Source of the DNA: Sphingosinicella sp. YJ22 | Lineage (GTDB): Bacteria; Pseudomonadota; Alphaproteobacteria; Sphingomonadales; Sphingomonadaceae | Reading direction: 5' to 3' | Assembly: GCF_011320075.1 (NCBI RefSeq) | Contig: NZ_JAANPA010000001.1 | Coordinates: 124,001-188,000, forward strand | Length of the DNA stretch: 64,000 nt | In this document: positions 26,671 through 48,534 of the stretch, piece after piece | Layout: each line of letters begins with the position of its first letter | Numbering within the stretch: the stretch's first letter is position 1 | The notes under the pieces: generated by a model | Databases searched by the model: none | What the model was told of the DNA's origin: nothing | Seen by the model: the letters and a program-made list of their open reading frames with translations, nothing else | Made by a program: the position numbers and the translations under genes

Positions 26671-26687
26671 TGGTGACCCCTACGGGA
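26671..26687. repeat. Right attachment site within tRNA-Glu (17-bp direct repeat)
   Basis: The 17 bases TGGTGACCCCTACGGGA are the complement of the tRNA 3' end (half T-stem, acceptor stem and CCA) and repeat exactly at 4496-4512. Confidence 0.85.
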
Positions 26688-26746
26688 CTCGAACCCGTGT
26701 TTTCGCCGTGAGAGGGCGACGTCCTAGACCGCTAGACGAAGGGGCC
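26671..26746 (-). tRNA. tRNA-Glu (anticodon CTC)
   Basis: A 76-nt cloverleaf including encoded CCA. Acceptor GGCCCCT pairs with AGGGGTC, the anticodon arm is TCGCC-CTCTCAC-GGCGA with CTC at positions 34-36, and the T arm is ACGGG-TTCGAAT-CCCGT. All arms are intact, so the integrated island regenerated a functional 3' end. Its natural terminator seems to be the hairpin now at 4472-4495. Confidence 0.95.
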
Positions 26747-27898: not shown

Positions 27899-30511
27899 GT
27901 GTCGGAACAGAAGGTTCGGATTGCCATCGTCGGTTCCGGTCCCGCGGGGTTGAGCGCCGCGGCCCGGGCCAAGCAGCTTGGCATCTCGCACCTGCTGATC
28001 GAGAAGTCCGACCACCTCTCCGACACGATCTACAAATACCAGAAGGGCAAGCATGTGATGGCGACGCCCGTCCAGCTGCCGCGCCGTTCGGACATGAAGT
28101 TCGACGCCGGCAAGCGCGAGGCGGTGCTCGGCCTCTGGGACGATCTCGCGGCGGAGTTCGCGATCGACGCGCTGATCAATGCCGAGGTGCTGTCGATCAC
28201 CGGGCAGGATGGCGACTTCGTGCTCAAGGTGAAAGGCGCCGCCAACCGCTGGCAGCGTCCGGACAAGCCCGGCGAGCCCCACGGTCCCAATGTCGCGGGC
28301 GCCGGTTCCGACCAGGTCCAGGAGATCCGCGCCGAGAAGGTGATCCTGGCGATCGGCACCCAGGGCAATCCCAACCGCATGCGCGTTCCCGGCGGCGACC
28401 TTCCGCACGTCCAGTATCAGCTCGACGACCCCAACGCCTATGACAACGAGCATATCACCGTGGTCGGAGCGGGCGACGCGGGCATCGAGAATGCGCTCGG
28501 CCTGCTCGAGGACCCCAAGCTCGACAACGTCGTCACCATCCTGAACCGCACCGCCGACTTCTCGCGCGCCAAGGGCCCCAACGTGCAGGCGATGTTCGCA
28601 GCGCGCGACGAGGGCCGGCTGACGGTGATGCCGGAGACGACTCCCGCACTGGTCGAGAATGGCTGGCTGACGGTGGAGACCCGCGACGGCCCGCAGCGCT
28701 TCCGCTGCGACCGCATCATCGCGCGCATGGGCTCCGCACCGCCGCGCGCCTTCGTCGAAGGCTGCTGCGCGACCTTCATCGAGCAGGAGGACCCGGACGG
28801 CGGCAAGCCCAAAAAGGTGATCAAGCCGGGCACCGGGATCGAGTTCAGCAGTCCCGACCGGGAAGCCTATCCCAAGCTGTCGCCGCAGTTCGAAAGCACC
28901 GTTCCCGGGATCTTCGTGGTCGGCGCTCTGGCCGGTTATCCGCTGATCAAGCATTGCATGAACCAGGGCTATGACGTCGTCGAGTTCATCAACGGCAACA
29001 CCAGCCTGGAGCCGGTCGACACGCCGCTTCTCGCCGCCAAGTTCAGCGCCCTGCCGGGCCGCCGAAGCGTCGACGAATGGCTCGAGTTCCTGCGCGAGAA
29101 CGTGATCATCCTGAACGGGGTGTCGCCGCTGCAGATGCGCGAGTTCATGCTCGACAGCGACGTGCGCTTCTACCGCGCCGGCGACACGGTATTCGAGCGC
29201 AACGAGCCGGGCTCGTCGCTGTTCGCGATCGCCTCGGGCAGCGTGCTGGTCGAGGTCGACCCCCGGGACCGCAGCATCACCGTGCCGATCGAGACCGGCT
29301 CGATCTTCGGCGAGGTCGGCCTGATCTCGGGGCGCCCCCGCGGCGCCACGGTCCGCGCCGCCGAGGATGCGATCATCGTCGAGGTCTCGCGTCTCTCCGC
29401 GCTCAAGCTGATGGCCGCGGTGCCGGCGGCCAAGGAAGCGGTCACCCGCATCTCGGTCGAGCGGCAATTGCTGCAGATATTCAAGTCGGGCCTGACTTCG
29501 GCCGACCTCGCCGACGTCCTCGACGATTACAAGATCGTTCGGGTGAGAGCCGGCGAGGCGATTATCAACGAAGGCGAGGAAGGCTACGATGTCTTCGTCA
29601 TCCGAGTCGGCTCGATGGTGGTCGAGCGCACTGTCGCTGGCCGCCCGGTCTTCCTCTCCTATCTGCCGGCGGGCTCCTATGTCGGCGAGATGGCGCTGCT
29701 CGACGGCGGCCGCCGCACCGCGACCGTGCGCGCCGCGATCAAGTCCGAGGTGATCCGCCTCAACGGCGACAAGATGCGCGCGCTGCTCGCCCGCAACGCG
29801 CGGCTGCGCGAGCGGTTCGAGACCGACATGGCCAACCGCCAGCGGCTCAACTCCTTCATCGAGGCGAAGAAGGAGAGCTTCAGCGGCGCCGTCGACCTCT
29901 ATTCGTCGGTCGCGACCTTCCTCGTCGAGCAGGGCATTGGCGACGCCACCGACGTGCTGCTGATCGACGAGAAATTGTGCGTCGGCTGCGACAATTGCGA
30001 GAAGGCGTGCGCCGACAGCCATGACGGCCTGTCGCGCCTCAATCGCGAGGCCGGCAAGACCTACGCCCATCTCCACGTGCCGACCTCGTGCCGCCATTGC
30101 GAGCATCCGCATTGCATGGCCGACTGTCCGCCCAACGCCATCCATCGCGGCCCGGACGGCGAGGTGTTCATCGACGACAGCTGCATCGGCTGCGGCAATT
30201 GCCAGCGCAATTGCCCCTACGGCGTCATCCGAATGGAGATGGTCCCGCCCAAAAAGCCGAACCTGCTGTCCTGGCTGTTCTTCGGGCGGGGACCCGGGCC
30301 GGGCGAACCCAGCCAGAAATGGGCCAAGGCCAATCTGCCGCTGACCGGCGACGAGAAGAAGGATGCCGAGCTGACCAAGAAGCGGGCGATCAAGTGCGAC
30401 ATGTGCTCGGGGATCCCCGGCGGACCGGCCTGCGTGCGGGCCTGCCCGACCGGCGCCGCGATTCGAGTCAAGCCGGAGGAGTTCCTCACCGTGGCGCGGC
30501 TGGAGGCATGA
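27899..30511 (+). CDS. FAD/NAD(P)-type oxidoreductase fused to two cyclic-nucleotide-binding domains and a four-cluster ferredoxin
   Basis: An 870-residue cytoplasmic protein without signal or membrane helix. Residues ~5-375 are a thioredoxin-reductase-like flavoprotein (IAIVGSGPAGLSAAARA; VVGAGDAGIENALG; VPGIFVVGALAG) lacking a CxxC redox pair. Residues ~395-510 and ~525-645 are two cNMP-binding domains; both phosphate cassettes are intact (FGEVGL…RPRGATVRA with E472/R481; VGEMALLDGGRRTATVRA with E597/R606). Residues 694-860 form an NrfC/DmsB-like ferredoxin with four cysteine groups (CVGCDNCEKAC, CRHCEHPHCMADC, CIGCGNCQRNC, CDMC…CVRAC), i.e. four [4Fe-4S]. It likely feeds or accepts electrons at the b-type protein encoded next, under cAMP/cGMP control; that role is inference. 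Confidence 0.88.
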   Translation: MSEQKVRIAIVGSGPAGLSAAARAKQLGISHLLIEKSDHLSDTIYKYQKGKHVMATPVQLPRRSDMKFDAGKREAVLGLWDDLAAEFAIDALINAEVLSITGQDGDFVLKVKGAANRWQRPDKPGEPHGPNVAGAGSDQVQEIRAEKVILAIGTQGNPNRMRVPGGDLPHVQYQLDDPNAYDNEHITVVGAGDAGIENALGLLEDPKLDNVVTILNRTADFSRAKGPNVQAMFAARDEGRLTVMPETTPALVENGWLTVETRDGPQRFRCDRIIARMGSAPPRAFVEGCCATFIEQEDPDGGKPKKVIKPGTGIEFSSPDREAYPKLSPQFESTVPGIFVVGALAGYPLIKHCMNQGYDVVEFINGNTSLEPVDTPLLAAKFSALPGRRSVDEWLEFLRENVIILNGVSPLQMREFMLDSDVRFYRAGDTVFERNEPGSSLFAIASGSVLVEVDPRDRSITVPIETGSIFGEVGLISGRPRGATVRAAEDAIIVEVSRLSALKLMAAVPAAKEAVTRISVERQLLQIFKSGLTSADLADVLDDYKIVRVRAGEAIINEGEEGYDVFVIRVGSMVVERTVAGRPVFLSYLPAGSYVGEMALLDGGRRTATVRAAIKSEVIRLNGDKMRALLARNARLRERFETDMANRQRLNSFIEAKKESFSGAVDLYSSVATFLVEQGIGDATDVLLIDEKLCVGCDNCEKACADSHDGLSRLNREAGKTYAHLHVPTSCRHCEHPHCMADCPPNAIHRGPDGEVFIDDSCIGCGNCQRNCPYGVIRMEMVPPKKPNLLSWLFFGRGPGPGEPSQKWAKANLPLTGDEKKDAELTKKRAIKCDMCSGIPGGPACVRACPTGAAIRVKPEEFLTVARLEA

Positions 30512-30543
30512 GCGTGACGGCGGGCAGGGGAGCGGCGCTCTAG

Positions 30544-31413
30544 ATGGCGACCCGGGGGGCAAAGCAGATCGAGCGCAGCCGGTCCTCGGCGCATGAGGGC
30601 TTCCTGCAGCATCGCAATCATCGCTGGCTCAAGATCGCGCTCGGCCTCTCGATCGCGGCGCTGATCGTCTATCTCGGCGTGGACGTCGAGCCGCGCCACA
30701 ATGGCGGCAGCTGGTACGGCTATACGCTCGGCACGATCGGCGCGCTTCTGATCCTGTGGCTGACCATGCTCGGCGTGCGCAAGCGGGCGATGACGCGCGG
30801 CTATTTCTCGCTGAAGGCGTGGACGTCGGCGCATGTCTATCTCGGCCTGTCGCTCATCGTCATCGCAACCTTGCACACCGGCTTCCAGCTCGGCTGGAAC
30901 GTGCACACTTTGGCCTATGTGCTGATGATGATCGTGATCCTGTCCGGGATCTACGGCATCATCGCCTATTCGACCCTGCCCGAAGCGCTCAGCGACAATC
31001 GCTCCGAGATGACCCGCTCGCAGATGATCGAGACGATCGCCAAGCTCGACCGCCAGATCGACATCGCGGCGCAGTTGTTGGAAGACACCGAGATCGTCCG
31101 CTCCTCGCTCAAGGAGAACCCGTTCCGCGCCGGCATCTTCGCGCGGCTGTCGGGCAGCGACCGCAACTGCCGCAATGCCCGCGCCTTGCAGGACATGCGC
31201 GCGCGCCTCGCCACCGCGACGGGGGAGCAGGAGGACGCGATCCGTGCGGTGGTGCAACTGCTCGAGCGCAAGGCGGCGGCGCTGGCGCGCATCCGGAGGC
31301 AGCTCAAGATCAAGGCGCGGCTCGAGGTGTGGCTGTTCATCCACGTGCCGACGACCTTCGCCCTGATCGCCGCTCTTTCCGTCCACATCCTCAGCGTCTT
31401 CTATTACTGGTGA
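30544..31413 (+). CDS. Di-heme b-type membrane protein of the electron-transfer operon
   Basis: A 289-residue protein with about five helices and a cytoplasmic-looking coiled middle part (residues ~150-255). Four histidines form two pairs each spaced by 13 residues: H97/H111 in the third helix (SAHVYLGLSLIVIATLHTGF) and H267/H281 in the last helix (FIHVPTTFALIAALSVHIL). This is the bis-histidine quartet of cytochrome b/b561-type proteins holding two stacked hemes across the membrane. No named family recognised. It starts 32 bp after the ferredoxin-flavoprotein gene and ends 7 bp before the decaheme gene, so it is probably the membrane link between them. Confidence 0.75.
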   Translation: MATRGAKQIERSRSSAHEGFLQHRNHRWLKIALGLSIAALIVYLGVDVEPRHNGGSWYGYTLGTIGALLILWLTMLGVRKRAMTRGYFSLKAWTSAHVYLGLSLIVIATLHTGFQLGWNVHTLAYVLMMIVILSGIYGIIAYSTLPEALSDNRSEMTRSQMIETIAKLDRQIDIAAQLLEDTEIVRSSLKENPFRAGIFARLSGSDRNCRNARALQDMRARLATATGEQEDAIRAVVQLLERKAAALARIRRQLKIKARLEVWLFIHVPTTFALIAALSVHILSVFYYW

Positions 31414-31420
31414 TGGCCCG

Positions 31421-33421
31421 ATGACCTTCCTCGTCGAGCGGATATCCTACAGCGCCCAGGGCCGGCGGATCGTGAAGGCGATCACGGTCGAGGGCGATAC
31501 GCTCACGATCGGCCGCCATCCGTCCAGCGACATCCGCCTGGCGGATCTCAATGCCGCGCTCCGCCACGCAGTGGTGCAACGGGTCGCGCCGATGCAGCTT
31601 CAGGTCTCCGCGGAGGAGGGCGTCGGAGTCGAGCTCGACGGCCGCAAGGTCACCTCCGGCATCATCGACCTCGCGACCGGCGGCGACCTCAGGATCGGCA
31701 AGAATCTGCTGCGCTTCGCGCCGACCGCCGCGGGCAGCGAGGAGATCAGGGTCGAGGTCGAGGAGGTCGGCGAAAGCGCGGCCGACGAGAAGGATCGCGC
31801 CGACGTCGCGCGCTTTGCCGCGGGCGCGGTCATGCCGGGCAAGCGAGTCGCTTCCTATGTGCTGGCCGTGGTCGTGCTGGCGGTGTTCCTGGCCTGGCCT
31901 TTATGGTTCGTCGGCCAGCGCCAGCAGGCCCAGGCCCAGACCGAACAGCAGCCGGTCCGCGGGGACGGCCGGAAGGCCAAGGCGGAGCGGCAGGAACGCG
32001 TCGAGGTCAGGCCGGTGGCGGGATTCGCGGCGGACCGGCTGTGGATCAGCGGCCATCTCAGCCAGGCGCATGCCAGCCTGGAGAATAATTGCGGCGCCTG
32101 CCATGTCCGCCCGTTCGAGCCCGTCCGCGACGAATCCTGCATGGGCTGCCATGGCGACATCACCAATCATGGCGACACCGAGCGCCGGCCCGAGGAAGCG
32201 GCCGCGCGCCTCGCCCGCTCGCAACCGAATCTCACCGGCTTCGCCCGCTTTCAGCTGACCGTTGCCGAGGCGTTCGGCCACAATGCCGGCCGCTGCGTCG
32301 ATTGCCACCGCGAGCATGAGGGCCCGACTCGGCTCGCCGACACGGTCCAGAGCGACTGCACCGGCTGCCACGCGGATCTCAACAGCCGGCTGACTGGCGT
32401 GCGCTTCGGCAATGTCGTGGACTTCGGGCGCAACGCGCCGCGGCCCGATCCCGAGGGTCATCCCGAGTTCCGGCCCCTCGCACTGATCAACTGGGACGGC
32501 GATCGGCCGCTGCTGTCGCGAGTCGATCTGCGCGGCGCCCGCGAGAACAGCAATCTCGCCTTCCCGCACGAGATGCACCTCGATCCCGAAGGCGGCGTCG
32601 CGCGGATGACCCAGCGGCTCGGCCAGCGTTACGGGGGACGGCCGGGTCTCGGCTGCGCCGACTGCCACACCGCGACGCCGGACGGGACGAGCTTCCAGCC
32701 GATCAACATGGAAGAGGATTGCAGTTCCTGCCACAGCCTCGGCTTCGAACAGCAGGGCAATGTCGTGCGCACTCTGCGCCACGGCGCTCCGGACCAGGTC
32801 GTCGCCGATCTGCGCGAATTCTATCGTGGCCGCGCGCCGGCCCGGCCGCAGGAGCTGAGCTCGGCCGCTCGCCGCCGCCCCGGCGACATCGGCCAGGTTC
32901 GCGCCGCGCTTCAATATGCCCGCGCCCGCGCCGGAGCGAACACGTCGGCGGTGCAGGCGATCCAGGCGGTGTTCCAGCCGCAGGGCGCGTGCGGCGAATG
33001 CCATGTCGTCGACCAGCGCGGGCCGCTCGACTTCCACGTGCGGCCGGTCGCCTTCCCGACCCGCTATCTCCTGCACGGCTGGTTCAGCCACGCTCCCCAC
33101 CGCCGCACCGAATGGCCGCGCGAGACACCGGCTTTCCCCCGCGGCGCTGCTTTCGAAGGCGACCAGGCCTGCCTCAGCTGTCACGTCCAGGCCGGAAGTT
33201 CGCGTGCGGCGACGGACCTGATGCTTCCGAACATGGCGAGTTGCCAGTCCTGCCACGGCGGTGAAGGCGGACGGCGCGAAGCCGTGGAATCGAGCTGCTC
33301 GATGTGTCATGATTATCACCTGAACCAGGGCGTTCCGGCGATGCTGGTCAGGCGTCAGGCCAGGGGACAGAGATGGCACACGACGGTCACGCCGGTGGCG
33401 CGACTGACGGCGGCCAGATGA
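31421..33421 (+). CDS. FHA-domain / transmembrane / decaheme cytochrome c fusion protein
   Basis: A 666-residue protein. Residues ~20-105 are an FHA phosphothreonine-binding-type fold (TIGRHPSSDIRLADLNAALR; the GR, S and N positions are kept). A single helix at ~147-166 (SYVLAVVVLAVFLAWPLWFV) places FHA in the cytoplasm and the rest in the periplasm. Ten CxxCH sites lie between residues 224 and 630: CGACH, CMGCH, CVDCH, CTGCH, CADCH, CSSCH, CGECH, CLSCH, CQSCH and CSMCH. It could carry electrons from the b-type protein into the periplasm while FHA binds a phosphoprotein. The architecture is unusual; function is inferred from domains and operon. Confidence 0.85.
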   Translation: MTFLVERISYSAQGRRIVKAITVEGDTLTIGRHPSSDIRLADLNAALRHAVVQRVAPMQLQVSAEEGVGVELDGRKVTSGIIDLATGGDLRIGKNLLRFAPTAAGSEEIRVEVEEVGESAADEKDRADVARFAAGAVMPGKRVASYVLAVVVLAVFLAWPLWFVGQRQQAQAQTEQQPVRGDGRKAKAERQERVEVRPVAGFAADRLWISGHLSQAHASLENNCGACHVRPFEPVRDESCMGCHGDITNHGDTERRPEEAAARLARSQPNLTGFARFQLTVAEAFGHNAGRCVDCHREHEGPTRLADTVQSDCTGCHADLNSRLTGVRFGNVVDFGRNAPRPDPEGHPEFRPLALINWDGDRPLLSRVDLRGARENSNLAFPHEMHLDPEGGVARMTQRLGQRYGGRPGLGCADCHTATPDGTSFQPINMEEDCSSCHSLGFEQQGNVVRTLRHGAPDQVVADLREFYRGRAPARPQELSSAARRRPGDIGQVRAALQYARARAGANTSAVQAIQAVFQPQGACGECHVVDQRGPLDFHVRPVAFPTRYLLHGWFSHAPHRRTEWPRETPAFPRGAAFEGDQACLSCHVQAGSSRAATDLMLPNMASCQSCHGGEGGRREAVESSCSMCHDYHLNQGVPAMLVRRQARGQRWHTTVTPVARLTAAR

Positions 33422-33435
33422 TCGGGGCGGCTTAG

Positions 33436-34362
33436 TTGGATCTCAACGGGAGCAAGTCGGCGATTCAAAAGATCGGATCAGCCGATAGCCTCGACCGCGC
33501 CCCGAGCATCTATGCCGCAGCGGAAGCCAAGGCGGAGGCGCTCGCGCTCGACGTGATCCGCGCGCGGTTCGAGAGCGGCCGCGTCCCCGATCACATGCAT
33601 TACCACAATAGCGAGCATACCGCCGGCGTGATCAACCGCGCCCGTGCGATCGGAATCGCTATCGACATGTCGGACCGCGACCTGCTGCTGCTGGTGATCG
33701 CCGCGGCGTTCCACGACGTCGTCCAATATTGGTCGCCGGAGCATCGCGACGACGGCTCGGTCTATCGCCGCCGCCACGCCGGCCGCAACGAGGTCGCCAG
33801 CGCCTATGAGGCGATCGAGGCGATGACCGAGCTCGATGTCGACTTCCAGCCCGAGGAGCAGGGCATCGTCGCGTCGGCGATCATCGGCACGATCCCCGGC
33901 TGGGACCATGAGTGCGCGACCGTCGTACAGCCTTTCCTGGTCGAGCATGGCGTCGTGCGCGCCCTGGCGCTGGCGGACATCGGCTCCTCGGGCATGGACC
34001 CGGCCATGTACCGGCTCGACGGGCCGAACCTGTTTGCCGAGGAGAATCTCGACATCATGACCGCGCTTGCGCGGGCGCGGCGCGGCAGCGACATCGCCGA
34101 AGCCGATCAGGACGACTATCGCGGACGCTACGTCGCCTGGCTGAGGATTCAGCCGGAATTCGCCCGCGGCCGCCGCGAATGCCTCGCCAATGGCGAGCTC
34201 GACGGCCTGGACGAGGAGCATCAGGCGCGGGTCGAGGCGCTGTTCTGCCATTTCGACGAGTCGATCGCCGCCGCCGAAGCCGCCGCGCTCGACGCCGAGA
34301 CACTTCCCTTCGTCCAGCTGATGCGCCAGCTCGATCCGGACGCTTTCCCGGACGAGGCCTAA
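33436..34362 (+). CDS. HD-domain phosphohydrolase-like protein
   Basis: A 308-residue soluble protein starting at TTG, 14 bp after the decaheme gene. The HD metal site is visible as YHNSEHTAGV, then AAAFHDVVQYW (HD pair) and a later ALADIG aspartate. HD proteins cleave phosphate esters, including cyclic nucleotides and (p)ppGpp. As the last gene of an operon whose first product has two cNMP-binding domains, a phosphodiesterase role is attractive but not shown. No standard HD-GYP or RelA/SpoT motif is present. Confidence 0.75.
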   Translation: MDLNGSKSAIQKIGSADSLDRAPSIYAAAEAKAEALALDVIRARFESGRVPDHMHYHNSEHTAGVINRARAIGIAIDMSDRDLLLLVIAAAFHDVVQYWSPEHRDDGSVYRRRHAGRNEVASAYEAIEAMTELDVDFQPEEQGIVASAIIGTIPGWDHECATVVQPFLVEHGVVRALALADIGSSGMDPAMYRLDGPNLFAEENLDIMTALARARRGSDIAEADQDDYRGRYVAWLRIQPEFARGRRECLANGELDGLDEEHQARVEALFCHFDESIAAAEAAALDAETLPFVQLMRQLDPDAFPDEA

Positions 34363-34372
34363 GCCCCTCCCG

Positions 34373-37300
34373 TCAATTCCGCCGCGTCGCCTCGACCCAG
34401 TCGGCCATGCTGCCGGTGTCGTCGACTTGGTAGAGCCGGCCGGTGCTCGCCGCACGGCCGCGGCTGACGAACAGCTGCTCCATCTCCGCCCGGTTGAACG
34501 GACGCGAGCCGAGGCGCCCGAACACCGCCATCTGGTGACCGGTCTCGTCGACGCCGCGGTCGCGGTCGAGCCCCTTCGACAGCGCCAGGGCCGGCGAGGG
34601 CGTCCGCGCCCAGGCGATCAGCTCGGGCGCCGGCCGCGGCGAGAAGCCGTAGAGCGCCGGCTGGCTCTCCGGCGAAGTTAGCTGGATGACGCGCACTCCG
34701 TTTCGTCCGTCCGCGACATAGGCGAACAGCGACGCGTTGGTCGACGCGACGATGACGTCCTCGACATCGTTGAGCAGCTGCCCGTGCTGGCCGGTGAAGA
34801 AGACAGGCGGCTGTGGGGCGTCGGGGCGGGTGATGTTGATGATCGCCAGGCCCTGATGCTTGGCGGCGACATAGGCGTAGGTGCGGGCGAGATAGATGCG
34901 CTGGGCGTTTTCCAGCCGCACCGTGCCGCTCGCCACCGGCTCCGGACGCGCCATGTCGGTGACGTCGAACAGCTTAAGCCCCTCGGCGTCGGTGACCCAG
35001 AGGTAGCGGAACTGCACCGCCGAGGCGCGCGCGTCGGTAAGCGGCAGGGTCGCCGTCACGCGCGGCTGAAGCGGATTGTCGAGGTCGAGCACGACGAGGC
35101 CGGAGGCGGTCGTGACGTAGGCGTAGGTGCCCGCCAGTGTGATGTGCCGGGCGCCGGCGAGGACTCCATTCTCGTTCCACGCGGTGGCGCCATTGGCGAA
35201 GCGGGTGCGCTCGAGGAAATTGTTGCGGGGCTCGCCGTCGGCCATGGTGCGGACGTCGACGAGGATCAGGCCCTCCTCGGAATCGGTCACCACCGCATAA
35301 TTGTAGATCGGGTGGAAGCGCTGCTCCTGGTTTTCCTCGAGCAACGAAACCGTGGTGCCGTCCGCATTCGCCCGAACCGTTTGAGCCATGCGCTCGTTGC
35401 GCTGCGGATCGATCGGCTGGTTGGTTGCGAGCGCCATGCAGGTCGCGTTGCGGCTAGGCACGCGCGTGTTGTGTCCGAGCGGCGAGAAGGGCGCGGTGAC
35501 GATGCGCTCGGAGGTTCCCTTGTTGCCGATATTGGCGATGTCATAGACCTGGAAGCCGCCGCGGCCTTCGGCGACGAACATATATTCGCCGCGCATCTGC
35601 AAGCAGCGCACCGCGCCCCCGGTGCCCTGGTGGATGTTGGCGAATTCCTCGTTGTGCTGGGTCTCGCCCGACAGGTTGCGGTCGAGGCGGTTGCCGCGTT
35701 CCCAATTGATCAGCTGGCGGCCGTTGCGCTCGACATGGAGGCGGTAGAAATCGGGATAGGCGAAGCGGTGGAGATAGGAGCCGATCACCGCCTGCGGCTC
35801 TTCCCACTCGGTCACGCGGGTCGCCTGGAAGCCGCCCTCGAGCCCCGCCCAATTGTGCAGGCCGACGAAGTTCACGAAGTTCGTGCCGTGCAGCAGCAGC
35901 TGCGCCATGATCGCATTGTTGTCGTTGTTCTGGCTGACATGGCAGTCGGAGCAGGTCTTGGTCTCGGTGCGCCGCACGGTGTGCGGGAAATGCGGCGCGA
36001 ACGCCTGTGACGAGTATCCGGACGCCGCGATCGGCGGCTGCTGGATGTAGATTCGCTCGCGGTTGAGATTGGTCGACGACAGGATCAACGCCGATGTCGA
36101 GCGGATCGGCGCGACGATTCCGCGGGGCTCGCCGTTCGGTCCCGGCTCGCCGACCTTGGTGGTCTGGTGGCGGCCGAGCTGGAACATCTCGTCGCGCGCC
36201 ACTTGCGGATTGTAGGTCGCGAAGTTGCGGGTCTGCGCGCCTTCGAAATGGTGCATCGAGGTGCGGAAGTTCGCCTCGATCGGCAAGTGGCAGCCGGCGC
36301 AGCTCGTCGTCCACGACAGGTGGCAGGTGAAGCAGGCCATGTCGCCTTCGGGGTGGGCGAGGTCGTTGTCGGGCACGCCTTCGCCGAATGGGGCATGGCC
36401 GTCGGTGCGGTCGGCGCTGCTCGCGCTCATCAGCTTGGAGCGCGCCGAGCGCATGCTGAAGCAGGGACCGGTGGTGCGGGGCTCTTCCCATTCCTCCGGG
36501 CAGCGGGCGTCGCGCAACGTGCCGTCGACGCTGTCGCGTACCTGGCTGACGACCCAGAACAGGTTCGGGTCGACGATCGAACGCTGGATCAGCACCTGGC
36601 GATTGTCGGGGCAGGTCAGCTGGCGCGGAAGGATCTGCTCGCCGCGCTCGATCGCGTCGGCGACCATCTGCTGGGCCTGGCCGCACTCCATCCACTCGAA
36701 GCGGCGGCGGCCGTCCTCGTTGCGGATCAGCTCGAGATTGCGTCCGCGCGGCGGCGCCGCCACGTTGGACGTGCGCAGATTGGCATAGTCGCGCGCGGTG
36801 CCGTGGCAGTCGCGGCAGCCGATCTCGATGGCGTTGGCGACCTCGCCGTAGAGGAAGCCGTTGCCGTGCGCGTCCTGGGCGAAATGGCAGTCGGCGCATT
36901 GCAGGCCGACCTCGGCATGGATGTCCATCATGTGGACGGCGCGGCCGTTATTGTTGCCGACCTCGGGGAACAGCGTCTCGCCGCTGCGCTGGAACACCTC
37001 GCGGCGCTGGATCTCCTCCGCGCTGGCAAGGCGGCCGTCGGCGCCGGTCACGTCGATGCGCTCGCCGCGCACGTCGACGAGATTGCCCTCGCGGTCACGG
37101 CGGAAGATGCCGCGGAAGTTCCAGCCGTGGCCGTGATAATCGGCGAATTGGGTCATCCGCGCGCGCGGATTGATCTGCTCATAGACCTCGCGCAGGAAGT
37201 CGACGTCGCCCCACAGGCCGCGCGGCGCGGCGGCCTCCGGGTTGCGGTCGAGGATCTCGAATGTCTGGCTGGCGCTCGGATAGCGCTGCTGCCGGTAGGT

Positions 37301-38884
37301 TTCGCGCCACCGCTCCTGTTGCTCAGCGGTCAAGCCTTCCGGCATCTGCAGCCGGTTCTCCGGCCCGGGCCACATGAGGTCGGCGTCGGCCTCATAGTCC
37401 CACATCGTGTAGCCGAGATAGCTGTTCAGGAAGATATTGGGCTGGTGCATGTGGCAGGTCATGCACTGGGCGGTCGGAATGGCGCGGGTGAAGACGTGGC
37501 GCACCGGGTGGCCGCGCTCGCGCATGGTCGCGTGGTTGGCGTCGGCCGGAGCCGCGCCGGTTGCGTCGCCGGAATCGCCATGATCCTCGCCATGCGCCTC
37601 CGCCGGTGGCGATGCCTCGGCGCTCTCGCCACAGGTCGTCGACAGGGGTGAGCCGGCTGCGCGCTGCCCGGTCACCGGGAGAGGCGCCTCGCGGCGATGC
37701 TTCTCGGTGTGGGCGTCGTGCTGGGCGAGGTTGCGGATGGTCGGGTCGCAGGTCTGGGTCTGACCGTCGCGGCCATATTGGGCATAGGTCAGGCTGTGCT
37801 GCGGCTGGCGGTCGTTGGCGTAGATGACGTGGCAGCCGGCGCAGCCCGAATGACGGTAGTCGCCCGGCTGGTCGTTGGTGCCCATGAACCACATGTACGG
37901 GTCGTTGAGGCGCGTCTTGTGGATGTTGAGCACCGCGATGGCGACGCGCAGGCCGGTGCCGGGGCCGCGGTTCGACTGGCGGATGTCGGGCCGGCCGGGC
38001 TCCTCGAGGCGCTGGATCGACCCGCTCGGATTGGGCAGGCCGATCTCGGCGAACTGGGTGCCGATGTTGCGCCCGCCGCGCTCGAACACGCGGAACACGT
38101 CGGCGGGCGGAAAGACGTGCCAGGTCGGGAGCGGATAGAGCGCGCCGAGCACGCCTCGGGCGCGCTGCTCGGCGGTCGGCTGGCCGTTCGGCGGCGACAC
38201 GATTACGGCGTTCTGGCCGGTGCGGGTATAGGCCTCGCCGGTGATGTAATTCTTGTAGGGCAGGATGCCGTTATTGTAGGCGCCGCCGCCCCACAGCATC
38301 GCGCCCGTCGCCATCAGCGACCGCTCCGCGGCCTCGATGATCTCGATATGGCAGGCGCCGCAGCTTTCGCGCACCACGCGATAGTCGGCGGGATTGACGA
38401 AGCGGACGAATTCCGGCGCCTCGATATTGAGCAGGGTGTAGCTGCGCGCCGGATTGGCGCTCGACGGCCAGTGCCAGCCGCCCGGATAGCGCGGCAGCAC
38501 ATGGGCCTGGTCGCGCGCGGCGACGTAGCGCGGATCGTCATGCGCCAGGTTCGGATCGCCGGCGATGCGCGGGTTGCCGCCATGGCAGTCGGTGCAGCCG
38601 AGCACCACGGCGGGCGAGCGGTGCATGGTGTGGGCGTCGCTGTCGTAGTGGCACGACATGCAGCCGCTGGTGCGCGCCTCGCCGCTCTTGGCGCGGGCGG
38701 CGGCCCAATCCTGGGTGCGCGGGGCAGGGGCGGCGCGGACCAGGCTGTAGTCGCGCACGACCGGCTTTTCCTTCTCCGCCGCGCCGACATAGGTCGCGCC
38801 GAACACGGCCGACGCGACGACGACCGCCGCCGCCATCGCGAACTTGCCGAACCGTGCTGCGATCGTCGCCCCCATCGTGCTCAT
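34373..38884 (-). CDS. Giant exported decaheme cytochrome c with C-terminal LVIVD-type beta-propeller
   Basis: A 1503-residue protein with a signal peptide (AMAAAVVVASAVFGATYVGA). Ten CxxCH sites lie between C75 and C978: CMSCH, CTDCH, CGACH, CAGCH, CMTCH, CADCH, CRDCH, CFTCH, CAGCH and CSDCH. An acidic/histidine-rich insert sits at ~430-460. From ~1110 to ~1430 there are six repeats of the type YxYVAxxxGLxVxDI (e.g. YAYVTTASGLVVLDLDNPLQ, YLWVTDAEGLKLFDVTDMAR), resembling LVIVD repeats of surface proteins. The start follows the beta-barrel stop by one base. Probably the outer-membrane or surface electron-transfer component partnered with the barrel; location is inferred. Confidence 0.85.
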   Translation of the reverse strand: MSTMGATIAARFGKFAMAAAVVVASAVFGATYVGAAEKEKPVVRDYSLVRAAPAPRTQDWAAARAKSGEARTSGCMSCHYDSDAHTMHRSPAVVLGCTDCHGGNPRIAGDPNLAHDDPRYVAARDQAHVLPRYPGGWHWPSSANPARSYTLLNIEAPEFVRFVNPADYRVVRESCGACHIEIIEAAERSLMATGAMLWGGGAYNNGILPYKNYITGEAYTRTGQNAVIVSPPNGQPTAEQRARGVLGALYPLPTWHVFPPADVFRVFERGGRNIGTQFAEIGLPNPSGSIQRLEEPGRPDIRQSNRGPGTGLRVAIAVLNIHKTRLNDPYMWFMGTNDQPGDYRHSGCAGCHVIYANDRQPQHSLTYAQYGRDGQTQTCDPTIRNLAQHDAHTEKHRREAPLPVTGQRAAGSPLSTTCGESAEASPPAEAHGEDHGDSGDATGAAPADANHATMRERGHPVRHVFTRAIPTAQCMTCHMHQPNIFLNSYLGYTMWDYEADADLMWPGPENRLQMPEGLTAEQQERWRETYRQQRYPSASQTFEILDRNPEAAAPRGLWGDVDFLREVYEQINPRARMTQFADYHGHGWNFRGIFRRDREGNLVDVRGERIDVTGADGRLASAEEIQRREVFQRSGETLFPEVGNNNGRAVHMMDIHAEVGLQCADCHFAQDAHGNGFLYGEVANAIEIGCRDCHGTARDYANLRTSNVAAPPRGRNLELIRNEDGRRRFEWMECGQAQQMVADAIERGEQILPRQLTCPDNRQVLIQRSIVDPNLFWVVSQVRDSVDGTLRDARCPEEWEEPRTTGPCFSMRSARSKLMSASSADRTDGHAPFGEGVPDNDLAHPEGDMACFTCHLSWTTSCAGCHLPIEANFRTSMHHFEGAQTRNFATYNPQVARDEMFQLGRHQTTKVGEPGPNGEPRGIVAPIRSTSALILSSTNLNRERIYIQQPPIAASGYSSQAFAPHFPHTVRRTETKTCSDCHVSQNNDNNAIMAQLLLHGTNFVNFVGLHNWAGLEGGFQATRVTEWEEPQAVIGSYLHRFAYPDFYRLHVERNGRQLINWERGNRLDRNLSGETQHNEEFANIHQGTGGAVRCLQMRGEYMFVAEGRGGFQVYDIANIGNKGTSERIVTAPFSPLGHNTRVPSRNATCMALATNQPIDPQRNERMAQTVRANADGTTVSLLEENQEQRFHPIYNYAVVTDSEEGLILVDVRTMADGEPRNNFLERTRFANGATAWNENGVLAGARHITLAGTYAYVTTASGLVVLDLDNPLQPRVTATLPLTDARASAVQFRYLWVTDAEGLKLFDVTDMARPEPVASGTVRLENAQRIYLARTYAYVAAKHQGLAIINITRPDAPQPPVFFTGQHGQLLNDVEDVIVASTNASLFAYVADGRNGVRVIQLTSPESQPALYGFSPRPAPELIAWARTPSPALALSKGLDRDRGVDETGHQMAVFGRLGSRPFNRAEMEQLFVSRGRAASTGRLYQVDDTGSMADWVEATRRN

Positions 38885-38885
38885 C

Positions 38886-40835
38886 TCAATAAGTCAGGAT
38901 CGCGTTCAACAGGATCGAATAATAGAAATCGTGGCGGCCCTCATTGGTGAAGAGATCGTTGAAGCCCGCCGTCGGGATCAGGGCCGCGGCGGACGCGCGG
39001 AACACGAGGTTCTGGTTGAAGTTCGGCCGGTAGATCGCCGCCGCGGAGATATCGAAGCCGATCTCGTTGGGGATGGTGCCCTCGACGCGAAGCGCCTCGA
39101 GCACCTCGGTGCGGTGGAACCATAGGTGATTGACGTTGCCCGACAGGCGGAAGTCCGGGGTGATGTCGAGGTCGGCGCCGACGCCGAGCAGCAGGGTGCC
39201 GGGGTTGACGAAGTTCGACTGGCCTTCCTCCTTGGACGAGCGGAGGTTGGCGAGGATGCCGTTGCGGCCGTTGAGCGACACCGCGCGCGCGCCGCCGGCA
39301 AACGGAATGGTCTGGCGGATCCAGTAGCTGGTGTCGGCGCCGGCGAAGATCGGGTTTTCGAAGATCGCGTCGTAGCCGGCATGGGTGTCGTTATAGGGAT
39401 CGCCGTCGCCGCTCGAGATCATCGCGGCGCCGCGCAGGCGGATCCAGTTGAAGTCGTAGCTCGGCTCGAACGCGGCGAAGTAGCCGCTGATGTCGGCGGG
39501 GCGGCCGGTGAAGACGTTGTGCTGCTCCCAGCCGAACACATAGGAGAGCGACGCGGACAGGTTGATGCGGCCGATGCGGCCGTCGGCATTGTAGCCGAGA
39601 TAGACGGCGTCGTAATTGCGGCCCCTCAGATCGCCGAACAGGGCCGGCCGCACCGGGAAGCCGTTGTCGTCGATATGGATGTCCTGGCCTTCGCGGTTGA
39701 TGTTCCAGGTGAGGCTCGCTTCGCTGGTCAGGCCGACGACCGGCAGGTCCTGGCGGAAGACGTTGGCGTGGATGATCCAGTCGTTGCGCGGGCTCGCGGT
39801 GACGTCGTTGAGGCCGGAATTGGTGTCTTTCTCCAGCCGCCACACGCCGATCAGATTGTACTGCCAGCGATTATTGTCGCGGTTGCCGAACAGGCGCACG
39901 GCGAGGTTCTGGTCGTTGAACAGGAAGCCGCGGAAATCGAACTGGAGCGGCTGGATGCCGACGCGGATCGAGTCGAAGTCGTAGCGGTCGGAGACGTCGC
40001 GGAAGTGATAGTCGATGAAGGCTTCCTGGACGCCGATCCAGGTGTCGAGGCGGCTGGTGCCGCGCGACGGCTCGACGAACAGCACGCGCCGCTCTGAGAC
40101 GTCGACATAGTTCATCTGGGCCGCCAGCGTCAGTCGATACTCGACGGTCGGCGGGCGGTAGGCGGTGTTGCCCTTGATCAGCGCGGCGCTGAGGATGACG
40201 GTCTGCGCGGCGACGAGGCTGTCGCCGATCCCGAACACGTCGACGCTGCCCGGCCGGTCGGTCGTCTGGACTCCGACCGGGATCGGGAAGGAGCGCGGCT
40301 CAAGCACCGTGTCGGAGATGGCGCTGCCGACGAAGAACCAATCGTCGCCGCCGAGGCCGAGACTGTCGAACACGCGGCAGCCGAGTGTGCGGCGATGGCG
40401 TTCGCCAACCTCGTCCTGCTGGTCGCGCAGCGCCGGCGTGCAGATCGGCCGGTCGCCCTTCAACGTGTTCTGGTTGTAGGGATCGAGATAATTCTCGCGG
40501 GCGAAGCCGAGGTCGCCGACGCCCCTGATGCGCAACGAGTCGATGAGCCGCCAGCGGTCCGGGATCGGGATATGGTCGGTGGGATAGGCTTCCGGCGGCG
40601 GCGAGCGGATCGCGCCGGGATTGACCTGCTCGACCGGCGGCTCGAGCGCTTCCTGCGGCACGCCCGGGCGGCGGCGCTGGTCCTCGCCAAGCCCTTCCGT
40701 GTTGGCGGGCGGTTCGACCTCGGGCGGCTGCCCGGCCTGGCCGGCGGGCGCGGGCTGCGACGCATTCTGCTCCTCCGCGACCGGCGGCTGCATCATCGAC
40801 GCGACGAGCGCGATGAGGGAGGAGCCCAGCGTCAT
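38886..40835 (-). CDS. Outer-membrane beta-barrel protein (putative cytochrome-conduit porin)
   Basis: A 649-residue exported protein with a short hydrophobic N-terminus (SLIALVASMM), a proline/glutamate-rich linker (~18-70), then alternating aromatic/polar strands to a typical barrel C-terminus (…YYSILLNAILTY). Strand-like stretches include YRLTLAAQMNYVDV, QYNLIGVWRLEKDTN and INLSASLSYVFGWEQH. I do not recognise a named family. Position between a tandem heme-binding-type lipoprotein and a decaheme cytochrome is that of the barrel in porin-cytochrome complexes (MtrB/PioB role), though no sequence link to MtrB (e.g. N-terminal CxxC) is seen. Start overlaps the previous stop (ATGA). Confidence 0.75.
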   Translation of the reverse strand: MTLGSSLIALVASMMQPPVAEEQNASQPAPAGQAGQPPEVEPPANTEGLGEDQRRRPGVPQEALEPPVEQVNPGAIRSPPPEAYPTDHIPIPDRWRLIDSLRIRGVGDLGFARENYLDPYNQNTLKGDRPICTPALRDQQDEVGERHRRTLGCRVFDSLGLGGDDWFFVGSAISDTVLEPRSFPIPVGVQTTDRPGSVDVFGIGDSLVAAQTVILSAALIKGNTAYRPPTVEYRLTLAAQMNYVDVSERRVLFVEPSRGTSRLDTWIGVQEAFIDYHFRDVSDRYDFDSIRVGIQPLQFDFRGFLFNDQNLAVRLFGNRDNNRWQYNLIGVWRLEKDTNSGLNDVTASPRNDWIIHANVFRQDLPVVGLTSEASLTWNINREGQDIHIDDNGFPVRPALFGDLRGRNYDAVYLGYNADGRIGRINLSASLSYVFGWEQHNVFTGRPADISGYFAAFEPSYDFNWIRLRGAAMISSGDGDPYNDTHAGYDAIFENPIFAGADTSYWIRQTIPFAGGARAVSLNGRNGILANLRSSKEEGQSNFVNPGTLLLGVGADLDITPDFRLSGNVNHLWFHRTEVLEALRVEGTIPNEIGFDISAAAIYRPNFNQNLVFRASAAALIPTAGFNDLFTNEGRHDFYYSILLNAILTY

Positions 40836-42799
40836 TTTCCCTGGCACACATTCTGGTCGTTCGAGCCGATGAACGGCGCGAACGGACAGCTGACCCAGCG
40901 CAGGCGGACATTGATTCCCGGCACGACGATCTGGTCGGCGCGGATCGCCGGCGGTGCATTGTTGATCGAGCCGACGCGCGCGCTGGCATTGTGGAGACCG
41001 AGGAAGCTGATCATGTCGTCCTGGTCGATGCCGTCGCCCGATATGCCGATGCCGCCGACGAGGGTGCTGCCGCGATAGATCGGCACCGAGCCGGGGAAGA
41101 TCTGGATTCCGTTGGCGAGCAGCGCCGGGTTCGGGTTCTGCGTGCATTGCTGGGGCGTGTCGGGCCCCGCGCCGAGCACGAACAGCACGTGCTGGATGAC
41201 GTTGCCTTCGATCAGGGCGGATTGCAGACCGGTGGAGAAGGGGTTGAACTCCTGGACCGGTCGCGAGAACGGCCCCGGCGGGCGGCCGAGCTCGCCGTCC
41301 GGGAAATAGGGCCGCGACAGGTTGCCGTTGGCGCGGTCCGAGAAAGCGAACTGCCCGGTCAGCGCATTGGGATCGCCGAGGAACGTGCGCACGGCGCCGA
41401 CGAACATCGACACGTCGGGGTCGGGATTGCCGAGCAATTGCTGCGCGGCGATCATGCTCGAGAAGAACATCGCGGTGCGCGCCTTCTGCAGCGACACGTC
41501 GATGCCGAAGATCGGGGCGTCGGGGGAGCGGACGAGACCGAGCACAGCGCCGCTGGTGTCGACCACGCTGATCGAGACCTGGGCGCGGCTGTCGAGCGGC
41601 TGGCGGATCTGCGCGCGCGCCGCGCTCATCACCTTGAACGCTTCCTCGAGCACGGCCGTCACCTCGGCCGCGGTGAGCGACTGGGGCGTTCCCTCGGTGC
41701 CGGCGCGGATCGGGTAGCGGTTGGCGCCGCTGCCGTTTGACAGAACGAAGGCGTCGCGGTTGGAGAATTCGGCGGCGGTCGAGGCGCGGATTCCGGACGC
41801 CTCGCTGCCATAGGCCGTGCCTGGCCGCACGCCCCCGACCGCGTCGTAATAGCCGTTGACGCTGGTGAGGTTGCCGACGCTGCCGTTGATCGCGGCGAAG
41901 CCAGGCGCCGCGGCGGGATTGCTGAGCAGATCGGCGACGCCCATGTCGCTGTAGCGCAGCGACGTGCCGTCGACGGTGATCCGCTCTGCCCGGATCGCAT
42001 CCGGCGCGGCGAAGCCCTGGCTCGCGGCGACGGCGATCGCTTCCTCGTCGTCGCGGTCGACGTCGCGCACTTCCGGGTCGAAGCCGTAGAGGCCGTCGGC
42101 GAACACGCCGATGCCGCCGACGACGACGCCGTCAATGTAGAGCGGGAGGCCGCCCGGATCGGCGGACAGGCCGAGCGGCGAGCGCTTGGGGCCGATCAGT
42201 GCGGAGGGCCCGCCCAGAGCGTTGAAGCGGGCGGACAGGTCGGAGCAGGGCAGCTGGCTGAACTGGACGCCGAACAATGGGCCGCTCTCCAGCCCGCGTG
42301 CGACCGCGGAGGGCGGGAAATGCTCCTGCACGATCATGCTGGCGGTGCGCGACGAGAAGGCGTTGCCGCCCGACGACAGATAGGCGCCGGTGATCGCCTT
42401 GGCGATGGCGGCGGCGACCGCTGCGGGGACGTTGTCGAGACCGGGCCGGTTGCCGACGCCCTGGAGGTCGTGGATGCTGCCGTTGGGCCCGCGCGGCACG
42501 TCGACCTGCAGATTGGCGCCGTTCATCACGAACACGGCGAGGACGTTGCCGACCCGGTCGGTCACCGCGAAGGTGGCGCGGATGCCGCGCGCCTGCGCCT
42601 CGGCGACGCCCTGGGCGATGATCTGCTGGATGTTGGCGACGCTGAGCGCCTGCTGGGCCGGCACGGCGAACACGGTCGTCGGCGGCGGGGTTGGCGTCGG
42701 CGTGGGCGGCGGGGGAGCGGGAATCGAGCCGCCGCCACCGCCGCATGAGGTGGCGAGCAACATGGCCGCAATGGCGATCATCGATGTGGCGCGGTTCAT
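40832..42799 (-). CDS. Lipoprotein with two GlcG/HbpS-like heme-binding-type domains
   Basis: A 655-residue lipoprotein: signal with lipobox-like MLLATSC, then a glycine stretch and a proline-threonine linker (~20-43). Domain 1 (~45-300) and domain 2 (~375-600) both resemble GlcG/HbpS (DUF336): VANIQQIIAQGVAEAQARGI with TFAVTDRVGNVLAVFVM, and AQVSISVVDTSGAVLGLVRS with KARTAMFFSS. HbpS-type domains bind heme or sense iron/redox. The two domains flank a long central insert. It overlaps genes on both sides by 4 bp in the cytochrome operon, suggesting a stoichiometric partner of the barrel/cytochromes. Confidence 0.78.
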   Translation of the reverse strand: MNRATSMIAIAAMLLATSCGGGGGSIPAPPPPTPTPTPPPTTVFAVPAQQALSVANIQQIIAQGVAEAQARGIRATFAVTDRVGNVLAVFVMNGANLQVDVPRGPNGSIHDLQGVGNRPGLDNVPAAVAAAIAKAITGAYLSSGGNAFSSRTASMIVQEHFPPSAVARGLESGPLFGVQFSQLPCSDLSARFNALGGPSALIGPKRSPLGLSADPGGLPLYIDGVVVGGIGVFADGLYGFDPEVRDVDRDDEEAIAVAASQGFAAPDAIRAERITVDGTSLRYSDMGVADLLSNPAAAPGFAAINGSVGNLTSVNGYYDAVGGVRPGTAYGSEASGIRASTAAEFSNRDAFVLSNGSGANRYPIRAGTEGTPQSLTAAEVTAVLEEAFKVMSAARAQIRQPLDSRAQVSISVVDTSGAVLGLVRSPDAPIFGIDVSLQKARTAMFFSSMIAAQQLLGNPDPDVSMFVGAVRTFLGDPNALTGQFAFSDRANGNLSRPYFPDGELGRPPGPFSRPVQEFNPFSTGLQSALIEGNVIQHVLFVLGAGPDTPQQCTQNPNPALLANGIQIFPGSVPIYRGSTLVGGIGISGDGIDQDDMISFLGLHNASARVGSINNAPPAIRADQIVVPGINVRLRWVSCPFAPFIGSNDQNVCQGK

Positions 42800-44238
42800 C
42801 TCAGCCTTCTGATCGCCGCTGCGGCGCGGCCGAGGCTCGCGCGGAAATTGCCTGGGTCGTAGACATTGGGCTCGCGCACCGCCTGATAGGCGCTGTTGAT
42901 GTCGCCGCGGATACCCATCACCGCCTGCTGGCTGATCTCGCCCGAGGCTACGAGCGACGACAGCAAGGTGTCGGTCGCCATCACCGCCTGAACGCTGCCG
43001 GCATAATCGGTGTAGCGCTCGGTGATCGCGCGGCTGGTGATCGCGTCGATCATGGCGAAGACCTGGGCGCGGCCGATCGGCGTACCGGCGAAGGCGGCGC
43101 CGAGCGCGTCGGCTTCCCCGCGCAGGCGGCGCGCGGCGGCGACCATGCGCTGGGCGTTGCCGGCCGACGAGCCCATCGCGGCATGGAAATCGGAGCTCGC
43201 CGCCTCGAACCGCGCCGCGCGCTGGGGCGCGACGACGCGCGCGGCCGCGGCGAGCATGATCATGTTCTCGTCATTGTAGGGCGGCACGCCGCGCGGGATG
43301 CGGCGGGTGAGGTTGAACAGGTCGCGGCGGACATTGGGGTTGGGGTCGTCGCTGATCGGCCGGTGGCACGAATGGCAATCGAGGAAGTAGAATTCGGGGA
43401 AGATGCCCTGGCGGCCGCGGTCGCTGAGGTAGAGGTCGAGCGAGCGCTTGAGCGCCTCCGCCTGGCCGATCGCCCAGACCTGGGCGTTGCCGACCCGGCG
43501 CTTGCGCTGGTCGTAGTCGCGGTCCTCGTTGTGATGCGCCTGGAGCGTGGTGAACAGGTCGAGCTCGAACGAGATGCGCGGATGGCCGGCGGCCATCATC
43601 TCGTGGGTGACGAACTGCTCGCGCGCCTCGTTGCCGAAATGGCAGTCGAGGCAGACGCTGGCGCGCACCGCCGGATCCTCGAGCCGGCGCAGGCCGCGGT
43701 CGAGATTGGCCTGATGGTCGCCGCGCACCGTATAATGGGACGTCAGCCAACGCGCCGCCGGGCCGTGGCAGGATTCGCAGCCGACGCCTTCGGCGCGGAA
43801 CGTCGCCGGGCGGTAGGCCGCGCCGCCGTCGGGATCGCCGGCGGTGGAGTGGCAGCCGAGGCAGCGCGGCTCGTTGCTCGCCGCCGCATTGCGCCAGTCG
43901 GCGCCGTTGCTCGACCGCAGCCGCTGCATGATCTGCTCGGAGCGGTCGTCCTCCAGCACGGCATAGGCGCGGCTGTGCGCGCCCGCGGCGCTGGCCGGGT
44001 CCTGCCAGATCATCAGCTCGTCCTGGCGGACGACGCCTTCGCCTTCACTGTTGGGGACGCTTCGGCCGTGGCAGGTGGTGCCGCCGCAGGTGGCGACGCC
44101 GACGAAGGTGCCTTCGGCAAGCGGCTGCTGCTGGGCGACCGCGCCCGCGCCGTCGGCCGCGATGAACAGAGCGAAGCCTGCAAGCAGCGACAGGGCGGTG
44201 CCCGCCAAGCCGACCGCGATGTTACGGCTGCCCCCCAT
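42796..44238 (-). CDS. Exported multiheme (pentaheme) cytochrome c, cytochrome c554-like
   Basis: A 480-residue protein with signal GLAGTALSLLAGFALFIAA. Heme sites: CGGTTCH (a CX4CH variant near residue 55), then CLGCH, CESCH, CLDCH and CHSCH. The order ATCGGTTCHGR … EPRCLGCHSTAGDP … GVGCESCHGPAARW resembles the cytochrome c554 family, which has four hemes. The C-terminal ~180 residues are helical without heme sites. First gene of the minus-strand operon; ATG 44238 was chosen because the upstream extension (to 44421) has no signal-like start. Likely a periplasmic electron carrier. Confidence 0.85.
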   Translation of the reverse strand: MGGSRNIAVGLAGTALSLLAGFALFIAADGAGAVAQQQPLAEGTFVGVATCGGTTCHGRSVPNSEGEGVVRQDELMIWQDPASAAGAHSRAYAVLEDDRSEQIMQRLRSSNGADWRNAAASNEPRCLGCHSTAGDPDGGAAYRPATFRAEGVGCESCHGPAARWLTSHYTVRGDHQANLDRGLRRLEDPAVRASVCLDCHFGNEAREQFVTHEMMAAGHPRISFELDLFTTLQAHHNEDRDYDQRKRRVGNAQVWAIGQAEALKRSLDLYLSDRGRQGIFPEFYFLDCHSCHRPISDDPNPNVRRDLFNLTRRIPRGVPPYNDENMIMLAAAARVVAPQRAARFEAASSDFHAAMGSSAGNAQRMVAAARRLRGEADALGAAFAGTPIGRAQVFAMIDAITSRAITERYTDYAGSVQAVMATDTLLSSLVASGEISQQAVMGIRGDINSAYQAVREPNVYDPGNFRASLGRAAAAIRRLR

Positions 44239-46191: not shown

Positions 46192-46216
46192 TCCGCCGGA
46201 TCGATTGGGGGATCAG

Positions 46217-47656
<1,440 letters not shown>

Positions 47657-48450: not shown

Positions 48451-48534
48451 TCTGACCTCCCTCCGACCTGCCTTGCAGGTCCTATACACAAAATCCTGCG
48501 GCGCGGCATCCCGCGCCCTGCCTGCGGCTCCGAG

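Follow-up and report, generated by a model that had tools for sequence, protein, structure and literature searches.

We analysed a 64,000-nucleotide stretch of the genome of Sphingosinicella sp. YJ22 (contig NZ_JAANPA010000001.1, positions 124,001 to 188,000 of the forward strand; hereafter the window), in which genes for multiheme cytochromes, a flavoprotein and predicted envelope proteins, here called A to I, lie near a cyclase gene and form a candidate electron-transfer system. Eight intact open reading frames, all found where a preliminary description had placed them, occupy positions 27899-44238 as two convergent groups. On the forward strand lie A (27899-30511), which by Pfam encodes a cytosolic flavin adenine dinucleotide (FAD)/NAD(P) oxidoreductase joined to two cyclic-nucleotide-binding (cNMP) domains and four 4Fe-4S motifs; B (30544-31413), for an inner-membrane protein; C (31421-33421), with an FHA-like cytosolic domain, one membrane helix and a periplasmic decaheme domain; and D (33436-34362), for an HD-domain protein (PF01966, 24.5 bits, cut-off 22). 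On the reverse strand lie H (42796-44238), for a c554-like pentaheme cytochrome (PF13435, 43.6 bits); G (40832-42799), for a lipoprotein with HbpS-like stretches (PF03928, 83.5 bits); F (38886-40835), for a predicted outer-membrane beta-barrel; and E (34373-38884), for an exported decaheme protein with C-terminal LVIVD repeats (53 bits). Two starts were revised: F most likely begins at 40835, which gives 649 amino acids and an ATG overlapping the stop of G, and H most likely at 44238, giving 480 amino acids. The conserved set is wider than this interval, and includes on one side gene I (26807-27751, reverse strand, divergent from A), for a membrane-anchored CcmH/NrfG-like TPR protein (TPR_CcmH_CycH, 75.7 bits), and on the other a reverse-strand gene (49441-51576) for a class III adenylate cyclase with a CHASE2 sensor.

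The heme-c motifs of the eight genes, when recounted, gave the total of 25 that had been claimed for them: ten CXXCH in C, ten in E, and four CXXCH plus one CX4CH in H. Homologues were counted in what we call the named loci, the best 80 of at least 594 stretches coding for relatives of E in a named genome collection; both patterns used for that search fall near each other within E, and one gene may therefore count twice. Ten motifs were present in 44/44 homologues of C and in 74/76 of E (the others having nine and three), and the four-plus-one arrangement in 66/66 of H; because these numbers are fixed in homologues they are not due to chance. The median intergenic gaps in the named loci, -1 to +10 nucleotides for A-B, B-C, H-G, G-F and F-E, suggest that these genes are translationally coupled.

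The inner half of the system begins in the cytosol, with a protein A that has no hydrophobic segment. Its flavin part came closest to YpdA, a model for disulfide reductases (93.5 bits, below cut-off), and its cNMP domains scored 116 bits against a Pfam cut-off of 27.5, in two stretches. The residue pairs E472/R481 and E597/R606, one pair in each cNMP pocket, were found in 44/44 proteins, two of which come from another class of the same phylum (inferred to be Gammaproteobacteria; 274 genomes, 12 of them with E; hereafter the other class), and we take them to be the Glu and Arg of the phosphate-binding cassettes. Equally, all 16 Fe-S cysteines of the four 4Fe-4S motifs were kept in 44/44 proteins. 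B has four hydrophobic segments and five His residues (97, 111, 121, 267 and 281) invariant in 45/45 homologues, a pattern that fits a probable di-heme b protein. In C a degenerate FHA-like domain is followed by one hydrophobic segment and by ten CXXCH motifs invariant in 14/14 proteins, and PDB sequences gave only weak heme-protein or FHA matches to it. Although a homologue of C from the other class passed the FHA cut-off, and G31, R32 and H49 are kept in 14/14, the Ser usual in FHA domains is not conserved in these 14 proteins, so the case for this domain as a phospho-threonine reader is weak. Of the 43 named loci in which A is visible, 40 also have gene I, and in 10/80 gene I stands beside H.

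In the outer half, E has an N-terminal hydrophobic segment and, like H and C, carries an N-terminal export or anchor segment; a lipobox was found in 0/76 of its homologues, and no PDB sequence matched it at an E-value of 1. The AlphaFold2 model of F (mean predicted local distance difference test, pLDDT, 68) shows a barrel of about 18 strands after about 160 poorly modelled residues. In a fold search with this model AlgE/OprD-type channels ranked first, AlgE with a VIA Z of 24.6, a root-mean-square deviation of 2.9 over 358 residues and 11% identity; MtrB was not among the fold matches listed, which does not exclude an MtrB-like fold. A profile of F had no match among PDB sequences at an E-value of 1, F itself had none in NCBIfam at 0.01 (the MtrB and PioB models included), and for an F homologue of the other class the sole match, at 0.1, was to a porin model (18.3 bits). 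By simple geometry, a barrel of 18 strands is too narrow to hold an MtrA-like cytochrome. C and H scored 25.9 and 19.5 bits against the MtrA/DmsE model TIGR03508, far below its cut-off of 192.2; the preliminary description, too, had seen no MtrA/B/C sequence signatures. The N-terminal heme region of H matches the cytochrome c554 family both in PF13435 and in the structure 1bvb (E-value 9.9e-5, its PDB matches being weak), and H differs from that family in its long extra C-terminal part, its CX4CH site and its operon context. In G695, a genome of the other class, another gene for an H-like cytochrome (L158 16049-17251) is found upstream of A and divergent from it.

A porin-cytochrome conduit is described in PMC6148476 as a multiheme periplasmic cytochrome, an integral outer-membrane beta protein and an outer-membrane lipoprotein that bears a redox cofactor. 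By prediction, the first element would be represented here by H (5 hemes), C (10) and E (10), and the second, as modelled, by F. For the third, G had been called a heme-binding-type lipoprotein, of which the lipobox (64/68 homologues) and the HbpS-like stretches were recovered and a heme-c motif was not. Compared with MtrCAB and PioAB, the system shares the general layout, with an inner-membrane donor, a periplasmic multiheme protein, a barrel and a lipoprotein, and differs from them in having a barrel of about 18 strands by model, no multiheme lipoprotein and an input from a cytosolic flavo-ferredoxin.

The two convergent groups had been proposed to form one system, and their co-occurrence in other genomes agrees with this. 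Among 60 related genomes, including the window's own, A (called present at an E-value of at most 1e-60) was found in 15/16 E-positive and 0/44 E-negative genomes (Fisher p 3e-13, kinship ignored). On an rpoB tree of 22/26 genomes of the genus, four being dropped for want of an rpoB match, E needs five changes and A changes with E in 4/4 independent pairs. In the 63 named loci with at least 9.5 kilobases (kb) to the right of E, A or C lies there in 39 and neither in 24; the three genomes checked whose E locus has no adjacent A-B-C set (G001, G008 and G026) hold that set elsewhere, unlinked from E, yet kept. Twelve E loci were fetched from the other class (L150, L156-L166), and in all nine that reach the C side, C and B stand next to G on a single strand, L150, L156 and L165 stopping short of it. 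The order is A-B-C-G-F-E in six (L157-L160, L163, L166) and B-C-G-F-E in three (L161, L162, L164), A lying some way off on the same strand in L161 and L162, and H is beside E in 8/12. The convergent layout was thus seen in Alphaproteobacteria only and is not universal; because of the same-strand order in the other class and the co-retention of the halves when unlinked, the convergent pair reads as one functional module laid out as two operons in this lineage.

L161 and L162 belong to a single genome, G557, which holds two copies of the whole system (L161/L162 and L228/L229), in each of which A is separated from B by the cyclase, a FecR-domain protein adjoining it and a TPR protein; one copy adds beside these genes a 2,251-amino-acid repeat protein with a lipobox-like start. 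At the left end of the system in the window, a tRNA-Glu gene (26671-26746) adjoins a phage-type integrase in at least three broken frames (24722-26609; one part matches DUF6538, one is weakly SAM-like and one is catalytic), and together they are likely an old integration site. A cyclic-nucleotide-binding domain (G000:C1:123730-123984) stops 16 bases left of the window, and its 268-amino-acid frame may enter it.

We found a candidate writer of the corresponding messenger about 5 kb upstream of H in the window. It is the cyclase, the probable signal writer, whose CHASE2 and Guanylate_cyc domains both exceed their Pfam cut-offs (98.4 against 26.3 bits and 63 against 21.9), and which, unlike CHASE2-adenylate cyclases otherwise, is linked to a multiheme electron chain. 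Of the named loci, 63 have a left flank of 9 kb or more; a cyclase orthologue lies 0.8-1.1 kb upstream of H in 16 of them, and 17 others have two metabolic genes at that place, shortly before the end of the flank. Another 18 upstream flanks, each about 15 kb long, include eight with the cyclase (L183-L188, L196, L197), and in G009 it is about 16.5 kb away. Among the 60 relatives the orthologue is present in 14/16 E-positive and 1/44 E-negative genomes, unlinked in four, with a raw Fisher p of 1e-10 when kinship is ignored. In the other class it was found in 9/12 E-positive against 84/262 E-negative genomes (p 0.004), and within about 13 kb of the operon in five. In both copies of G557 it separates A from B; in the other four the approximate distances are 3 kb from A (G608), 7 kb from E (G685), 8 kb from H (G424) and 12 kb from A (G695). 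In the window, H is separated from the cyclase by a gene that reads as acetolactate-synthase-like and an aldehyde dehydrogenase gene (44600-47656), a conserved pair also present in most flanks of the genus, the first member being beside H in 17/63 named loci, and then by two similar genes without a Pfam match (47719-49314), homologues of which accompany the cyclase in relatives.

A candidate eraser follows C. In relatives a metallophosphoesterase gene immediately follows C, and this holds for the three genomes with a relocated A-B-C set as well. It is present in 38 of the 39 named loci whose full flank includes A or C; the remaining one, L062, which is presumably the genome G016, has D. The best of three such proteins scored 134.2 bits with SpdA (E-value 6e-39) and 98.5 bits with CpdA, short of the equivalog cut-offs (400 and 225); the Metallophos domain itself passed its own cut-off. 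The solved structures matched were 2zo9 (3e-26) and Rv0805 (2e-22), both of them phosphodiesterases. It thus resembles the CpdA/SpdA/Rv0805 class III phosphodiesterases, and in the window its place is taken by the HD protein D, no orthologue being found at 1e-8 in the window's genome or in G016. That D, of another phosphohydrolase fold, replaces the metallophosphoesterase hints at a need for a phosphodiesterase in this slot but does not prove it. A homologue of D was seen only in G016, and among 296 genomes drawn from the order D occurred in the window's own only. We rejected D as a proven phosphodiesterase, its PDB matches being at chance level, with phosphodiesterases at an E-value of 1.2, and its homologue a single one. 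Of the signal gating suggested in the preliminary description, the cNMP domains with their invariant residues were upheld and gained a phosphodiesterase-like slot and a CHASE2 cyclase as neighbours; the FHA part was weakened, and the HD protein, which sits in the phosphodiesterase slot of two genomes only, lost the claim to a conserved role while keeping that position.

We consider that the system is probably a cyclic-nucleotide-regulated, NAD(P)H-fed electron chain that starts in the cytosol and leads to the outer membrane. The domains, the cofactor motifs, the predicted topology, the conservation as one system and the linked cyclase and phosphodiesterase-like genes are read from sequence, from which we infer cAMP (cyclic AMP) as the ligand, the gating, the outward direction, the order of the carriers and the acceptor. 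A periplasmic cue would act on the CHASE2 domain and the cyclase would make cAMP, which would bind the tandem cNMP domains of A and so permit or block electron flow. Electrons could then pass from NAD(P)H to FAD, through the four 4Fe-4S clusters of A to the b-hemes of B and to the ten periplasmic hemes of C, and go on to H and E, which the barrel F and the lipoprotein G would keep in or beneath the outer membrane, for transfer to an acceptor there. The phosphodiesterase next to C, in the window probably the HD protein D, would reset the signal. Outward flow is preferred because A has an NAD(P)-linked flavoprotein fold and no energy-coupling subunit for the reverse was recognised among the conserved genes. 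With more hesitation, we propose that a second messenger gates this chain directly at its flavin/iron-sulfur input, post-translationally switching export to or through the outer membrane; it would be the first such chain, with a periplasmic-sensor cyclase as writer, the tandem cNMP domains of A as reader and a neighbouring phosphodiesterase as eraser, in ordinary aerobes of a widespread lineage.

Several observations weigh against this proposal. At the outer membrane, barrel F as modelled resembles a solute channel, a heme-c motif was found in 0/68 homologues of G, and the AlphaFold2 model of E residues 30-1060, made from 38 alignment rows, is of low confidence (pLDDT 42; predicted template modelling score, pTM, 0.30). 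Within the relatives, G024 (86% complete) has E and lacks A, the cyclase and the metallophosphoesterase, and the kinship-corrected link between A and E, with four pairs only, is not significant (p 0.125). The corrected link between the cyclase and E amounts to two pairs that agree, none that oppose and two that are equal, so that the raw p is lost after correction for relatedness and we rejected the co-occurrence as independent proof. The cyclase was absent from 10/18 of the further upstream flanks in the window's own class, its family is common in the other class (93/274 genomes), G460 has the operon and no such cyclase at 1e-60, and in G598 the cyclase lies on another contig. The stretches fetched from the other class contained no metallophosphoesterase homologue, and the linked eraser therefore belongs to the Alphaproteobacteria examined. 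Finally, Sphingomonadales are mostly aerobes, which makes a need for such a chain less evident.

The first of these points bear on the main rival, a periplasmic or outer-membrane-associated reductase and no wire, in which channel F would admit a soluble acceptor such as an oxyanion, a quinone or a chelate for E and H to reduce inside, much as has been discussed for ExtI, a porin of the Geobacter ext cluster, the cAMP circuit being unchanged. We regard it as a real but lesser possibility, and it ranks as the main rival because F is channel-like, G is free of heme c, the heme part of E was modelled at low confidence and the ext cluster of Geobacter offers parallels. E and its homologues share short stretches with ExtM (54.6 to 68.2 bits, the best of about 50 residues) and with ExtN and ExtO, although the ExtM matches are far below the equivalog cut-off of 800 bits and F matched no NCBIfam family. 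The extHIJKL genes likewise combine a pentaheme cytochrome, a porin-like protein and a heme-c-free lipoprotein (PMC6148476), and loss of ExtI impairs selenite and tellurite reduction, to which ExtI is tied, and not to that of Fe(III) citrate (PMC5877670); deletion of extHIJKL lowered Fe(III) citrate reduction to about 65% (PMC6148476). As a whole, extHIJKLMNOPQS, which together with Mtr comes nearest among known systems, shares with the present system a pentaheme cytochrome, large multiheme cytochromes, a barrel, a heme-c-free lipoprotein and a b-type inner-membrane partner, but nothing here corresponds to its Rieske protein (ExtO), its cytochrome b (ExtP) or its rhodanese-like protein (ExtH); a flavo-ferredoxin, a di-heme b protein and an HbpS-like protein stand in their place; the available parts of PMC6148476 and PMC5877670 name no cNMP domain for the ext cluster. 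For the aerobic phototroph Erythromonas ursincola an NADH-dependent, membrane-bound tellurite reductase has been reported (PMC5488091), but a tie to our system is a mere guess because its subunits, of 62 and 55 kDa, found their nearest mass-spectrum match in GroEL and the word heme is absent from the available text of that paper. Against a soluble reductase, too, 25 hemes are many. With F so similar to a channel and G without heme c in all 68 homologues, the path out to the surface in the preliminary description goes too far, and our own proposal ends at the outer membrane.

It is unlikely, in our view, that the regulation is incidental, with the cNMP domains structural or bound to another ligand and the cyclase and metallophosphoesterase serving other pathways. 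The wide occurrence of CHASE2 cyclases, the few corrected pairs and the metallophosphoesterase scores under the equivalog cut-offs would be expected from such a reading, but the binding residues are invariant in both cNMP domains and in both classes, the metallophosphoesterase stays after C when A-B-C has moved, the two genomes without it hold another phosphohydrolase fold in that place, and in both copies of G557 the cyclase stands between A and B. Quite improbable is an inward chain, in which an external donor, for instance Fe(II) or Mn(II), would feed E and H and, through C, B and A, reduce NAD(P)+; all the carriers are reversible in principle, but NAD(P)+ reduction by iron or manganese is uphill, no energy-coupling subunit was seen among the conserved genes and the flavin part of A is nearest to a disulfide-reductase model. 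In Rhodopseudomonas TIE-1, which oxidises Fe(II), conduits of the outer membrane do support inward flow (PMC6148476). That these are two unrelated neighbouring operons, as their convergence in the window might suggest, is scarcely credible, contradicted as it is by the same-strand order and the co-retention described above.

The system is widespread. Of the named loci, 77 carry Sphingomonadales names and three are named as Alphaproteobacteria or Proteobacteria only, with genera that include Sphingosinicella, Sphingopyxis, Erythrobacter, Novosphingobium and Blastomonas. A phylum-wide draw gave E in 11/398 genomes (the window's own, seven more of its family, two from other parts of the class and one of another class). 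Thirteen plasmid records hold E, 12 from Sphingobium and one from Sphingopyxis, and in the three examined the annotation calls the gene products hypothetical, heme-binding, cytochrome or multiheme proteins. The copy of Sphingobium herbicidovorans sits on plasmid pMSHV; in that species a two-partner-type secretion/activation protein and a 2,092-amino-acid hypothetical protein directly precede H (L059 515-8668), and TomTYG74 has similar genes ahead of H. The system was not described in the literature searched, although PMC11475568, which surveys multiheme clusters on a large scale, may include such loci without names in its supplementary lists; its main text, as far as available, is without the terms 'sphingo', 'erythrobact' and 'alphaproteobacteria', and the available part of PMC9226611 has nothing on this system. 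What we describe is probably a trans-envelope multiheme electron chain and apparently an undescribed one, in which the messenger circuit is the part for which no precedent was found.

Most knowledge of envelope electron conduits comes from metal-respiring bacteria, where to our knowledge it is expression that is regulated. The system described here is conserved and conduit-like and has a messenger circuit of its own, which suggests that the cell could switch an electron line on or off by a messenger molecule. If true, this would mean allosteric control of electron export, would make the system a candidate for unexplained reductive activities of sphingomonads, and would be open to testing in culturable strains such as Sphingobium herbicidovorans.

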